DNA from: a bacterium
GTDB taxonomy: Bacteria; UBA9089; CG2-30-40-21; SBAY01
Length of the DNA: 8,676 nucleotides
Direction: 5' to 3'
Assembly (NCBI GenBank): GCA_040757115.1
Contig: JBFLYA010000156.1
Coordinates: forward strand, 1 to 8,676
Made by a program: the position numbers and the translations under genes. The notes beneath the pieces are model-generated. The model saw only the letters and a program-made list of their open reading frames with translations, searched no databases and was not told the DNA's origin. Shown piece after piece: positions 3,322 to 8,596 of the stretch (its first letter is position 1; each line of letters begins with the position of its first letter).

Positions 3322-6300
3322 TTATCTTATTATTCCCACTTTCCCCTTCTTTTTGTCCTTTCCATCATCAACTACGAAGATATAGACACCTGATGGCAGG
3401 TCTTTTCCATCTTTGTTTTTCATCTCATACTCAAACTCTCCAGAGGAATTGGTCCTCTTTTCCCCTTCATATAAAAGCTCGCCGGCAATGTTAAAAACCT
3501 TTAAAGTTATATTTGTATCTTTTGATATATTCTTAAATGTTACTTTATTTACCTTCCTGGCTGGGTTTGGAAAACAATAGACTGAATTAAAGATTACAGG
3601 GACATCTATCTTCGCTGGTTGAGAATTTATCTCTAAAAGGCTATCCTGATTTCCTATCCTTTCTATAAACATTGTCTCTCTATTCTCTTCCATATCAAAG
3701 TTAAAATTTAATTGGGAAGAACCACTATCTTTGACCATAAATCTGACCTTTCCTAAAACGCCTGAATCCATTTCTTGTGGGTTCACTAAACCATAGGCAT
3801 AGTCTATCCTTCCATTTTCTACCCTGTTTATAATCCGATAGGCATTTTCTGGCAGCCAATCTCCTTCTACTATTTTGCCTATTGGTTTAAGGATATTCTC
3901 ATCATAGCTTAGATGAATCTCTCCACACAAAGAATCCCTGGCACCAGAAATAAGGATATTAAACTCTATAATCTCACCTATCTTTACATTATTAATAGAT
4001 TCTGGCTCAAACTTTAAGGTAATCTTTCCACCTTCTCTTTTTGCCTTTAATGGTTTTATTCCTTCTAAAGTTTGTTGTTCACCAAAGTTTGCCCTGAATA
4101 TCATAAAATCATCAATGTTTATTATGGCATCAGCGTTAAAATCGCAATTAGAATTATAATAAGTTTTTGAACCTAAAGTATCGGCAAGTGCTGGCCAATC
4201 TGATATATTTATCTGGCCATCGCCATTTGCGTCTCCTAAGATGAGGATAATTGTTCCCTGCTCAGTTGTCTCATTAAATTGTGTCTTTGTTATGATAACA
4301 TCTGTCTTTGTGGCTGGTGTTGCCCCGGGATAGGTAAAGGCTAAGCTATAAGTTCCAACCTGGATATGGTCAAAGATAAACCTTGAGTCAGGAGTTGTTG
4401 TGGTTGTTGCACCCGTTTCAATTAATCTAACACTAATACTTCCAACCCTCTGTCCTGCGGTCCCAAAGTCAATAAAACAAAGCCCTGATATGTTGCCAAA
4501 CCTTCTTAAAGAATAAGCGTTAAATACAACCAAAGAATCAGAAAGTCTTGCCTCTACGGTATAAGTTCCTGGCGGCTCTTTCCCTAAGATAAGATATGCG
4601 CCTGTTGTTCCATTGATGTTAGTTAATGTTTGGGTTTGGGATAGATTAAATCCAGATGCACCATCTGGACTATCTGTAATTTCCCAGTTTATCAAAACAT
4701 CTGGATAAGGGTTATGATAAATATCTTCTACCTTTATCACAAAGGGATTAGGTAACGTCTCCTCGCAGTTGGCTCGCTGGTTATTTCCGCAGACATAAAG
4801 AATGGTTGTTGGTGTGCCTGTCACATAGATTATGCCATCTTCTTTATTGAATGGAATGGCGTTTGAAGATGCATCCCGAAGAGTGGTAGAAGTTCCAAAA
4901 CACAAGGAAGATGTTCCTTCATCCTCTCCTCTAAATCTGATAGAGCATAAAACACCAGAACCTGTTGCTGAACCGATTAATCCAACAAAGTAATAAATAC
5001 TTCCAGTGCTATTATCATATCGCTGAACAACCATACCTCCTTGCGGAAATTCACCAGAGGTGATGGTTGAAACCTCAAGGATATCCGGATTAAAGGAAAG
5101 AAAGAGCTCTGCTCCGGCCATATTCGTTACATCTTCTATCAGAACATCAACAGTAGATTCTGTGCCTCTGTGAATAACCTTTGATGATGGGACAATCCTT
5201 AATTTTGTTATTGTCGGTAATGTGTGGACAATTATAGCCTCAACTACGGAAAAGGTTCCATAATTGAGTGCTTTATCTGTCAGGGTTCCGTAGAGGGTAT
5301 ATGTTCCATCTGAAAGCCCACAATAAGATAAAGAAATGGTGCCATTATTTAAACCAAAGATTGTGGTTGTATTTGAGGCAAATATATGACCATCTCTTGC
5401 TAACACGATGGTGAATGTAGCGGGATTTTTCTCTGTCCAGATAAAGGCGACAATAATGGTTGCGGTTGCTGGTGTGGTATAAGGTATTGTTCCATCATTG
5501 ATATTTGTTATTTCAACCATAGGTTTGGTGGTATCAACAATGGTTGAGGTAGTAGTTCCTGTAAATAATTCTTCATTACCTGCCATATCCTTTGCTTTGG
5601 TATAGAAGAACCATTTGCCATCTGTATTTGTGCCTAAATTACAGGTGAATGTTCCCGTAGTAAGTATTCCAGAAATGGGTTGATAGGTATGATAGTCCCA
5701 TGTCCCTCCCTCTTTCATCTTATAAAGGTTAATTTGCTTAAGTCCTGATTTATCAAAGGCAAGGTAAGGAATCTTAAGGCTTGAGGTATTTGAGTATTCG
5801 GACAGAGAAAGGGGATAAGATGCAGGTAAGATACCATCTAAAGTAACTGGGACATCACATATCTTTGTGTATGTGTTTGTGCCAATGGTAAGATAACCTG
5901 TAAGTGTGCCATTGATAATATTGTCTCCATTCTTGACCGTGTAGGTTCCTGTATAGGTGCCTGGCTGTATTTCTGTCATAGTTGTTGTCGCCATACCAGA
6001 AATAACAAAGGTAGCAAAACCGTATGGCGTTCCATTCATAACTACCTCAAGAACCTTTCCAATTCCCAGGGATGTCGTGCCGGAATGGGTAAGGAAGGTA
6101 ATGGCGTTTTCATTAGTTATTGGCAGAATATATCCCATAGAAAGGCTATAAAAGCTATTCTTGCATTCACCAATACATCCCTGACCACTGGAATCGACTA
6201 ATTTATCCCCACCTGAAACCCTTATCCCACCACCCTGGTCTACCACTTGCCAGAAAACATTATCTGCATAAGAAGTGGTAGGGAAGACAGATAAAATAAT

Positions 6301-6342
6301 TAGAGTTAATAAAACTCCTTTTTTATCTTGTAATCTAATCAT
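3322..6342 (-). CDS. Secreted cohesin-dockerin protein with FlgD-like C-terminal sorting domain
   Basis: This is a 1006-aa exported protein. A signal peptide (residues 1-26) has a basic N-region, hydrophobic core LLTLIILSVF and a likely cut after SYA. An N-terminal region of Ig-like beta-sandwiches follows (about 30-375; DxAGNEE motif near 252-258). Cohesin-like domain 1 spans about 380-508, an invasin-like Ig domain about 511-600, and a carboxypeptidase-regulatory-like domain about 616-690. A type I dockerin covers about 701-756, with two calcium loops starting at D704 (DANGDGQINISD) and D734 (DFNADAIINIDD). Cohesin-like domain 2 spans about 772-915. A FlgD-Ig/type IX-like sorting domain closes the protein at about 920-1006 (CFPNPARKVNKVTF, ending PSGVYIFVV and a basic tail). 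No catalytic domain is seen. The ATG at 6342 has AAGGA about 9 nt upstream. It probably acts as a surface scaffold or adhesin; the binding partner is unknown and the sorting route is inference. Confidence 0.85.
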   Translation of the reverse strand: MIRLQDKKGVLLTLIILSVFPTTSYADNVFWQVVDQGGGIRVSGGDKLVDSSGQGCIGECKNSFYSLSMGYILPITNENAITFLTHSGTTSLGIGKVLEVVMNGTPYGFATFVISGMATTTMTEIQPGTYTGTYTVKNGDNIINGTLTGYLTIGTNTYTKICDVPVTLDGILPASYPLSLSEYSNTSSLKIPYLAFDKSGLKQINLYKMKEGGTWDYHTYQPISGILTTGTFTCNLGTNTDGKWFFYTKAKDMAGNEELFTGTTTSTIVDTTKPMVEITNINDGTIPYTTPATATIIVAFIWTEKNPATFTIVLARDGHIFASNTTTIFGLNNGTISLSYCGLSDGTYTLYGTLTDKALNYGTFSVVEAIIVHTLPTITKLRIVPSSKVIHRGTESTVDVLIEDVTNMAGAELFLSFNPDILEVSTITSGEFPQGGMVVQRYDNSTGSIYYFVGLIGSATGSGVLCSIRFRGEDEGTSSLCFGTSTTLRDASSNAIPFNKEDGIIYVTGTPTTILYVCGNNQRANCEETLPNPFVIKVEDIYHNPYPDVLINWEITDSPDGASGFNLSQTQTLTNINGTTGAYLILGKEPPGTYTVEARLSDSLVVFNAYSLRRFGNISGLCFIDFGTAGQRVGSISVRLIETGATTTTTPDSRFIFDHIQVGTYSLAFTYPGATPATKTDVIITKTQFNETTEQGTIILILGDANGDGQINISDWPALADTLGSKTYYNSNCDFNADAIINIDDFMIFRANFGEQQTLEGIKPLKAKREGGKITLKFEPESINNVKIGEIIEFNILISGARDSLCGEIHLSYDENILKPIGKIVEGDWLPENAYRIINRVENGRIDYAYGLVNPQEMDSGVLGKVRFMVKDSGSSQLNFNFDMEENRETMFIERIGNQDSLLEINSQPAKIDVPVIFNSVYCFPNPARKVNKVTFKNISKDTNITLKVFNIAGELLYEGEKRTNSSGEFEYEMKNKDGKDLPSGVYIFVVDDGKDKKKGKVGIIR

Positions 6343-6580: not shown

Positions 6581-6615
6581 CTTACCTCTTTATCTACATT
6601 TTTTCGTAACTATTC

Positions 6616-6771
6616 ACCACGAAGAGCACGAAGGACACGAAGATGTTACAGAACAAGTCTCTTTATGCCTTCTTTCAATCTTTCCACATTGAAATTTATC
6701 AACAGACTAACCTTAATATTTGCTAACTTCATTAGATATTTCATCAAATTTCACTTCGTGCCCTTCGTGGT
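6616..6771 (-). repeat. CACGAAG inverted-repeat element
   Basis: The left arm (6616-6642) is three 9-bp units, ACCACGAAG, AGCACGAAG and GACACGAAG. The right arm (6754-6771) is the inverse of two such units and, read on the minus strand, is ACCACGAAGGGCACGAAG. It matches the left arm at 17 of 18 positions. Between the arms lies the tail of a GxxExxY-family gene. The arms plus gene remnant look like an internally deleted copy of a larger repeat-associated element. Confidence 0.65.
6646..6744 (-). pseudogene. GxxExxY-family protein, C-terminal remnant
   Basis: Read on the minus strand from the ATG at 6744, the sequence encodes 32 residues (MKYLMKLANIK, then VSLLINFNVERLKEGIKRLV, then L) before TAA at 6646-6648. 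The closing LLINFNVxxLKxGIKRxV is the characteristic C-terminus of the GxxExxY family (PD-(D/E)XK-like small proteins, usually about 120-130 aa). The catalytic part and the name-giving GxxExxY motif are absent, and an in-frame TGA lies just upstream, so this is a truncated fossil rather than a gene. It is framed exactly by the inverted CACGAAG arms. It is too short for standard ORF calling. Confidence 0.75.
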
Positions 6772-6784
6772 TTAATCTCTTTTA

Positions 6785-6841
6785 GTCTAACACTGAAATA
6801 AGCGGTGAGCGAAGCGAATCCACTTCATTGATTGGTTAGGC
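6785..6841 (-). other. Candidate integron attC recombination site
   Basis: Read on the minus strand, this 57-bp site opens with GCCTAAC (matches RYYYAAC) and closes with GTTAGAC (matches GTTRRRY); the two are complementary apart from one wobble position. The inner arms AAGTGG and CCGCTT flank a 14-nt terminal region, ATTCGCTTCGCTCA, a form common in environmental attC sites. The two half-sides differ by one nucleotide, as expected of attC extrahelical bases. It sits about 50 bp downstream of the vapC stop in the canonical orientation for a cassette. No integrase gene or second complete attC is in view. Confidence 0.75.
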
Positions 6842-6891
6842 AATCTCTCTCTATCTTCTCCTTAAATTCGATGTCTGACTCCGATTCCTTC

Positions 6892-7308
6892 TTATTTCAG
6901 CAAACGAATAAAACCTGCTTGTTCAAAGTGATGGTCGGTTGTCAAAGCTTCTCCAATACCACGCTGTCTCATCACTACAAAACTCGCACAATCCGCAAGG
7001 CTCCACTCCTTATCCTGATGGCTTCTGAATAGCTGCCAAGCCTGTTCATCAAGTCTCAAGTCCACATGCACAACTTCAACATAAGGTGAGTTTTTTAAAC
7101 CTGCAATAAACGCAATCACTCTTGTCCGAGGAATGCGTAGAGGACTGGTCATTAACATTGCTAATTCAGCAATAACATAGTTAGTTGTAATGACTTTCCG
7201 TCCCTGTTGACGGGATGTCCGATAAATGGTTGCTGCCAACGCATGGTAAGGCTGCGTTGAATCAACCAAATTGCCCCATCCCGATGTGTCAGCAAATAGT
7301 TCAGACAT
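6892..7308 (-). CDS. vapC: VapC-type PIN-domain ribonuclease toxin
   Basis: This is a 138-aa single PIN domain. The expected acidic metal-binding residues are present: D7 in FADTSGW, E48 in NYVIAELA, D106 in SLADCASF (with D99 in the preceding DKEWS) and D125 in TTDHHFEQAGF, which is the C-terminal signature of the family. Such toxins cleave tRNA or other RNA using Mg2+ and are held inactive by the cognate antitoxin. The start at 7308 follows the vapB stop by one base and has AAGGA about 9 nt upstream within vapB, so the two are co-translated. The length is normal and all key residues are intact, so it is probably active. The specific RNA target cannot be told from sequence. Confidence 0.92.
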   Translation of the reverse strand: MSELFADTSGWGNLVDSTQPYHALAATIYRTSRQQGRKVITTNYVIAELAMLMTSPLRIPRTRVIAFIAGLKNSPYVEVVHVDLRLDEQAWQLFRSHQDKEWSLADCASFVVMRQRGIGEALTTDHHFEQAGFIRLLK

Positions 7309-7309
7309 A

Positions 7310-7570
7310 TCAGTTATCCTTGTCTCCTTTATACTCTATTTGTTTCATCAAGTCCGCCCCAATGTATTTGTTATGTTGATCTGCCCAATCTGGAATGTTA
7401 CTCTTGAACACCCCGATAAAATTTTCTACCGGATCTTCAACAGTAGTGCGAATGGCAGTCTTCAACCACTCGAGAGCCAATTTTTCAGGCGTCCGTCCTG
7501 TCTGTTTTGCCGTTCTTATTAGGGGTTCGTATATCTTTTCTGGCACTTCTAAAGTCAATGTATGTCCCAT
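7310..7570 (-). CDS. vapB: VapB-like ribbon-helix-helix antitoxin
   Basis: This 86-aa protein is encoded immediately before vapC. Residues 3-10 (HTLTLEVP) form the DNA-contacting beta strand, and about 11-42 give the two helices of a ribbon-helix-helix fold. The C-terminal half (about 48-75, FIGVFKSNIPDWADQHNKYIG) resembles the toxin-neutralising tail seen in antitoxins of PIN toxins. It should bind VapC and, as a dimer, repress its own promoter. The start at 7570 has AAGGAG about 8 nt upstream. In the leader, 7585-7605 reads as three 7-bp units (AAATTGG, AAATTAG, AAATAAA on the minus strand). The assignment rests mainly on its position before vapC and on the fold pattern. Confidence 0.82.
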   Translation of the reverse strand: MGHTLTLEVPEKIYEPLIRTAKQTGRTPEKLALEWLKTAIRTTVEDPVENFIGVFKSNIPDWADQHNKYIGADLMKQIEYKGDKDN

Positions 7571-7639
7571 AGAACCATCTCCTTTTTATTTCTAATTTCC
7601 AATTTTAACTTCATTTTCTAACCGCAAGCTTTCAAACAA

Positions 7640-7655
7640 AAGTGAACCGTCCCCG
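7640..7655 (-). repeat. Solitary GGGGACGGTTCACTTT motif
   Basis: The minus strand carries GGGGACGGTTCACTTT in the gap between the PAC2-gene stop and the vapBC leader. GGGGACGGTTC-type motifs are often seen beside REP-associated tyrosine (Y1/IS200-like) transposase genes in candidate-phylum genomes, from general knowledge. No transposase and no second copy are in the window, so this is a suggestive footprint only. Confidence 0.35.
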
Positions 7656-7666
7656 AAATTCATAAC

Positions 7667-8596
7667 TTATTGTCCTTCTTTTCTAAACAAATCTAAAAAT
7701 CTATCCTCGTATAAATTATATAAATTCCAGCGATCTAATTCCTCTTTTAACTTATGAGCCTTTTGTTTATCCTGTTTTGACTCTTCAAATAGTTTTTCTA
7801 TCTTTTCCATAATATTATCAGGGACTTTATGTTCTTTTTCTTCAGTCTTTTTCTCTTCCTGTCCAGGAAGAACACCTTTTATTTTATCCTCAATCATATC
7901 CATTTTCATTCCAATCTCTTGAATAGCAAGGTTTATTTCTGTCATCTCCACTCTAAAATTCAATAATTTTCCCAAAGTCTCGATTATGACTTTTGATGCC
8001 TTTGGATTTGGGAAATTAATCATATACTGTGGAATGCTGGCTAAAATGCAAGCGGCTTCTATCCCTAGTAGCCCGGCATAGGATAATAATAAACCATTTA
8101 GTCCTGAAATTTGTCCTCCTTTCATTATCTCTATCCCATGTTGATAGACATAATCTCTAATTGATTTATTATTTCCTACACAAAAGGGAAGCGAGTCATC
8201 TTTATGAGTAATAACTACCGGGAATGCCGCGGCGGTATAAATTCTTTGAACCTCAAGTTGTTTGGCAAAATCTAAAACCTTCAGCATTAAATGCAAACCC
8301 TGTAAATCTTTTAATTGAGCCTCACTTTCAAATATGAGTAAATTCAAATCCTTGTGGTAATAAAATACATTTTTAGGCACTGGCGGGAATTTGGCTATAC
8401 CCTGTTCGATTATAACTAACTCTGGAGCTACTAATTGCTCTATCTCAATTTCGGCAAATGGAGTTGCCTTAAGCTTCCATTGTAAGTAATCTATTGCCCC
8501 TAAGGCAACATTACCTATTCCTGGCCAGGCCGCTATCATCACCGGCTCCTTTATCTTTAATCTTTTATAAATTTTTATTTCTGGTTGCATTGTCAT
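7667..8596 (-). CDS. PAC2-family protein (proteasome assembly chaperone 2-like)
   Basis: This is a 309-aa cytosolic protein of the PAC2 superfamily. The conserved core spans about residues 18-235: MIAAWPGIGNVA at 20-31 (first glycine-rich loop), TAAAFPVVITHK at 121-132, GGQISGLNGLLL at 160-171 and the region SIPQYMINFPNP at 187-198. A lysine- and glutamate-rich tail from about 240 to 290 is predicted to be helical or coiled, ending in an aromatic segment, RWNLYNLYEDRFLDLF. Archaeal and eukaryotic members help proteasome assembly; the role of most bacterial members is unknown and no proteasome gene is visible here. The gene appears to be leaderless: no Shine-Dalgarno precedes the ATG at 8596, and a second ATG lies at 8590. 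It does not form an operon with vapBC (96-bp gap with repeat and cassette boundary). Confidence 0.82.
   Translation of the reverse strand: MTMQPEIKIYKRLKIKEPVMIAAWPGIGNVALGAIDYLQWKLKATPFAEIEIEQLVAPELVIIEQGIAKFPPVPKNVFYYHKDLNLLIFESEAQLKDLQGLHLMLKVLDFAKQLEVQRIYTAAAFPVVITHKDDSLPFCVGNNKSIRDYVYQHGIEIMKGGQISGLNGLLLSYAGLLGIEAACILASIPQYMINFPNPKASKVIIETLGKLLNFRVEMTEINLAIQEIGMKMDMIEDKIKGVLPGQEEKKTEEKEHKVPDNIMEKIEKLFEESKQDKQKAHKLKEELDRWNLYNLYEDRFLDLFRKEGQ

Follow-up and report, generated by a model that had tools for sequence, protein, structure and literature searches.

A vapBC gene pair with an apparently weakened attC site, probably a stranded cassette of a resident chromosomal integron

Toxin-antitoxin (TA) cassettes are already known, as are large chromosomal integrons (PMC11023631) and lone attC sites (PMC9024848). 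What, then, is a vapBC-like gene pair that is followed by a single attC-like site on a contig without an integrase: a mobile cassette, the edge of an array, or something left behind? We analysed such a locus in the complete contig C156 (8676 bp, hereafter the window) of a draft genome of 4.3 Mb in 462 contigs that is 99.9% complete. A first-pass annotation had described the locus as a mobile, stand-alone vapBC cassette with an attC, either isolated at a secondary site or at the edge of a CALIN (a cluster of attCs lacking an integrase). The features that our analysis relies on are the following, in minus-strand order from the PAC2-family gene through the vapB-like gene and vapC to the attC and beyond:

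7667..8596, minus strand: PAC2-family gene, the chromosomal flank (PF09754, E 7.9e-32; 99% amino acid identity in the sister genome G001)
7588..7653, minus strand: truncated MITE with one end only, upstream of vapB (homology to dispersed copies)
7310..7570, minus strand: vapB-like antitoxin gene, 86 aa (by position and size; one base upstream of vapC)
6892..7308, minus strand: vapC, PIN-domain toxin, 138 aa (PF01850, E 1.5e-9)
6785..6841, minus strand: attC, 57 bp (39.2 bits with model R1, 49.4 bits with model R2; 91% identical to a sister site on contig C78)
6790..6791, minus strand: crossover point G|TT (copies of the downstream cassette elsewhere start at that base)
6615..6790, minus strand: recurrent gene-less cassette, of which the first ~175 bp are present; a relic of a GxxExxY gene (copies elsewhere; no recognisable attC at the far end)

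The site downstream of vapC is a genuine attC. It starts 50 nt beyond the vapC stop (6892), in the same orientation as the genes, and its sequence at 6841-6785(-), GCCTAACCAATCAATGAAGTGGATTCGCTTCGCTCACCGCTTATTTCAGTGTTAGAC, has the boxes R'' GCCTAAC (6841-6835) and R' GTTAGAC (6791-6785), which fit the RYYYAAC/GTTRRRY ends, with paired inner boxes. In the window, a covariance model trained solely on eight attCs from known plasmid-borne resistance cassettes (R1) placed this site first (E 2.5e-9); the runner-up was the same site on the opposite strand (12.4 bits), and the best match elsewhere had 10.9 bits. Genome-wide, R1 found 20 short sites at 28.9-64.6 bits before the next match fell to 15.4 bits. 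A further model trained on 22 other attCs of the host genome, with the window site excluded (R2), scored the site with an E-value of 9e-13. Because most of the short training sites of R2 came from the R1 search, R2 is partly dependent on R1. In the host attC set, two-sided changes occurred in 9 of 18 pairs with a covariation score of 0.353, compared with 0.150 for shuffles and at most 0.076 for slid versions. Neither model found a second attC in the window, and Rfam scans gave no attC-type match. The covariance search therefore bears out the 57-bp attC of the first-pass annotation, and its reading of vapBC as the cargo of that site fits the order and orientation. Attcs akin to the window site are found on C78 and C124 (80% for the latter); the C78 site (L073 2491-2547) has a better stem, but its R' box reads CTTAGAC and is altered at the crossover base. 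Among class 1 integron cassettes, the attC that looks most similar by eye belongs to catB3 (plasmid pE47_001); it has common R''/R' boxes and 5-nt spacers and is also alike in its L boxes with extra-helical bases and in its GCTTCGC loop region (CGCTTATTTCAG vs GGCTTATTTCAG), whereas the window site is 57 rather than 60 bp long, folds much more weakly, and has an inner stem that is shorter and an L stem with one A.C mismatch on the bottom strand.

The two genes upstream of this attC are a predicted toxin-antitoxin pair with intact reading frames. The nearest solved relative of the VapC is VapC20 (E 1.7e-16), and a PIN protein with a small gene directly upstream is the arrangement of VapBC systems. 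The PIN match confirms the toxin of the earlier annotation; the antitoxin matches no family at threshold, and the search returned for it only a sub-threshold match to RHH_5 (ribbon-helix-helix, E 0.02). A promoter scan upstream of vapB gave nothing above chance, and PADLOC gave no match. Plasmid records contained distant relatives of the VapC only (<40% identity), and relatives beyond this locus reached at most 48% identity over most of the length, with one 39-residue fragment at 62%. Besides both copies of this locus, the loci searched yielded one attC-like match only (L096, 26.6 bits).

The right-hand junction fixes where recombination would have taken place. The last six bases of R' are part of the downstream cassette, and the sequence from the attC G at 6791 onward is GTTAGACTAAAAGAGATTAAACCACGAAGG.... 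Copies of the same element (TTAGACTAAAAGAG...) begin at the identical base after different attCs on C168, C212, C30, C205, C298, C28 and C78. On C39 and C63 they begin after ...GTATAATNACTT|, which we regard as attI because it resembles ...GTGTATAATAACTT|GTTAGAC beside the intact intI. Several copies are roughly 190-240 bp long and end at another attC, and the element is therefore a small gene-less cassette; the copy on C205 is longer and codes for the beginning of a GxxExxY protein (PF13366). Because the start base is shared by these other copies, the crossover at 6791/6790 is fixed independently of the attC models, and the exact junction with a recurrent cassette lies at the G|TT where IntI would recombine the window attC. 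It also means that the cassette does not stand alone, as had been supposed, because its attC runs directly into another cassette, a common one, of which the first ~175 bp are present.

Integrases use attC as a folded bottom strand. Calculated with DNA parameters on the bottom strand and with canonical stems enforced, the window attC folds at -0.8 kcal/mol with a folding probability of 0.024, compared with -13.7 to -22.9 kcal/mol for the eight plasmid attCs and -4.8 to -25.2 kcal/mol for the 22 host attCs, which makes it the least stable of the 30 attCs measured. Low folding probabilities were also obtained for the host sites C59b (0.0014) and C298b (0.028), neither of which is as unstable in energy. 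The weak fold results from the L stem, where the arms pair on the top strand only with a G.T and the bottom strand has an A.C mismatch; the complementary arms noted earlier thus hold for the top strand but not for the strand that is used. Because the mismatch is common to the host and to G001, the weakening is older than the split between the two genomes. Unconstrained folding of both strands was no better than that of shuffled sequence (z 0.16 and 0.68). The attC is real, but by calculated fold energy it appears weakened, and the vapBC cassette is probably no longer excisable. Because the contig carries a single attC, there is also no partner site for attC x attC excision as the contig stands.

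On the left, no cassette boundary was found. No attC or attI was detected upstream of vapBC, so the expected G|TT after an attI or attC is lacking and we class the locus as a cassette remnant rather than a complete cassette. The GTTAGAA at 7616-7622, which had been put forward as the other boundary, falls within the truncated MITE. Full copies of this family are 118-184 bp long, have the ends GGGACGGTTC/GAACCGTCCC and an internal palindrome, and are present on many contigs; most aligned copies have GTTAGAA in the same place. The MITE homology runs ~34 bases beyond the motif to 7588, 17 nt before vapB. Had a cassette been inserted at G7622, this MITE sequence would no longer be there, and G7622 was therefore ruled out as a boundary.

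The host lineage is sparsely sampled, and one genome of the same genus, G001, was available for comparison. G001 has the same order of PAC2 gene, MITE, vapB, vapC, attC and cassette, with 96.9% identity over 2.1 kb (PAC2 98.6%, vapB 99.2%, vapC 99.8%, attC 98.2%), a 39-nt indel between vapC and attC, and a left-end MITE that is truncated in an identical arrangement. Because the locus is the same in G001, the cassette is old. G001, the one close relative in which this vapBC is found, has the attC as well, and in the same-genus comparison, where the locus is occupied, no empty site for vapBC-attC was found. Together with the missing left partner site and the least stable fold, the shared locus argues against the mobility claimed in the first-pass annotation. 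Homology to G001 stops at 6615, the end of the dispersed gene-less cassette, and of the following sequence only dispersed repeats match; the searched coding part of the next gene (5900-6342) has no counterpart there. The side beyond 6615 may reflect a rearrangement or an assembly join. Because the contig is short and synteny ends there, the actual surroundings of the locus are uncertain, and there could be more of an array in that direction. The next gene itself (3322-6342) encodes a secreted-type protein of 1006 aa with cohesin-like and Por secretion-tail matches, whose start region was not found in G001.

The absence of an integrase noted earlier holds for the window contig but not for the genome: besides a single intact intI, the latter carries about six that are broken or partial, together with attI of two types and at least 121 attCs. 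Every attC count is a minimum, because R1 misses 132-bp attCs, and R2, which was capped at 150 scored candidates, misses short sites that are known (C156, C78). Near-identical attCs of 132 bp, of which there are at least 40, dominate the host set. Integron-bearing contigs of the host (G000) are C30, C39, C63, C93, C98, C116, C118, C130, C168, C205, C212, C282, C298, C322 and C329 (example loci L017, L018 and L020). The intact IntI is encoded on C39 (460 aa; TIGR02249 372 bits, cut-off 265), where its gene faces away from a cassette array with an attI in between. We used the TIGR02249 cut-off because NF011946 also matched ordinary XerC/D in 14 of 14 control genomes. In the intact protein (L017 13613-14995), the integrase domain is preceded by ~135 additional N-terminal residues, and relatives of the same extended length with 48-74% identity are found in Desulfobacterota, Brocadia/Scalindua and Nitrospirae MAGs. 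Broken or partial intI are located on C30, C63, C118, C324, C114 and C116. The second attI type, ...GGCAGTATAATCTAAG|GTTAGAC, is on C118, with close versions on C30 and C116, and C118 also carries another vapBC cassette that is flanked by two attCs within an array.

With an intI, attI and long arrays of similar attCs, albeit divided among many contigs, the host thus has a sedentary chromosomal integron. It is like the Vibrio superintegron type in its intI, attI, number of attCs and TA cassette within an array, but differs in having several broken intI and two attI types and in that the vapBC of the window is not within the arrays. In the terms of IntegronFinder, the window resembles a CALIN or lone attC in having an attC without an integrase nearby, although its single attC is under the default threshold of two, so that the contig does not qualify as a CALIN by that definition, and an integrase is present elsewhere in the genome; a CALIN with one attC can nevertheless be a true positive (PMC9024848). 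For archaeal MAGs, the literature reports as many as 107 attCs (PMC9668308). We consider the integron load of the host, with its attCs, attI types and broken integrases, more interesting than the locus itself. The wider point is this sparsely sampled host lineage: with R2, attCs were detected in 18 of the 21 genomes examined around the host (host counted), with at least 86 in the sister genome. An integrase match above the TIGR02249 cut-off was seen in 6 of the 21.

We therefore weighed several explanations for the locus. It is probably a vapBC cassette of the resident chromosomal integron that was stranded outside the main arrays. This reading draws on the attC scores from two separately trained models and the covariation in the host attC set, on the exact start of the downstream cassette, which is also seen after other attCs and attI, on the intact IntI, the many attCs and the C118 vapBC cassette in the same genome, and on the truncated left MITE in both genomes together with the least stable fold. 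Against it stand the lack of an empty site and the loss of synteny with G001 past 6615, and the weak fold is a calculated energy, with some other host sites similarly low in folding probability. A chance palindrome beside an ordinary chromosomal vapBC operon would agree with free single-strand folds at the shuffled level, but is scarcely credible given the high scores with both models, the near-identical sister sites and the exact cassette junction. That the locus is instead a true edge or detached fragment of an array, with an assembly break and nothing stranded, is unlikely, even though the host arrays are split over contigs, a second cassette starts directly after the attC, and the alignment with G001 breaks off at a dispersed repeat: both genomes have a PAC2 gene and a MITE on the left, without attC or attI, and to the right the contig runs 6.6 kb further with ordinary genes (including sufB/sufC-like and larE-like genes) and no attC. 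Recent insertion of a functional, mobile cassette at an attG-type secondary site in the chromosome, along the lines of the first-pass annotation, would account for a lone attC in a chromosomal setting, where the intact integrase could act in trans, and off-array cassette integration has been described in the literature (Loot et al. 2024, as cited in PMC11023631 and PMC12444791). We nevertheless regard it as very improbable, because the left side has no cassette boundary, the presence of the locus in G001 is at odds with a recent event, the fold is weak, and the second cassette start does not fit a lone insertion.

For the stranded cassette, we propose that IntI once brought the vapBC and gene-less cassettes together, within an array or at a secondary site in the chromosome by the PAC2 gene. 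A later MITE insertion, or a deletion ending in the MITE, would have removed the left end, the right-hand cassette would have lost its own attC, and the remaining vapBC attC would have decayed; these steps may have occurred in another order. The vapBC genes may have been kept with intact frames because loss of a toxin-antitoxin pair is difficult. TA cassettes are usually proposed to stabilise arrays, a role that a lone TA cassette would not have. The locus would illustrate one fate of cassettes, in which a TA cassette outlives its array with one end gone and its attC weaker, while its genes are kept in two genomes of the genus.

The gene-less cassette also occurs off-array, starting at 1501 in L003 (C40), 1001 in L037 (C9) and 948 in L030 (C67). 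These copies start with G|TTAGAC (GATAGAC on C67) and are preceded by neither attC nor attI; on C40, an aminotransferase-like frame upstream ends at a stop codon provided by the element. Natural spread of this cassette to chromosomal places outside integrons in the host lineage appears doubtful to us, and the fact that no attC was found at the right ends of the three copies counts against it. If it were true, stranded pieces of the vapBC-attC type would be fossils of natural off-array (attG-like) integration, repeated in one genome. At 1022-1114, downstream of the larE-like gene, the window contains AATTGTGAATGGTG-type repeats, and strings like these are also present in the gene-less cassette copy on C9.
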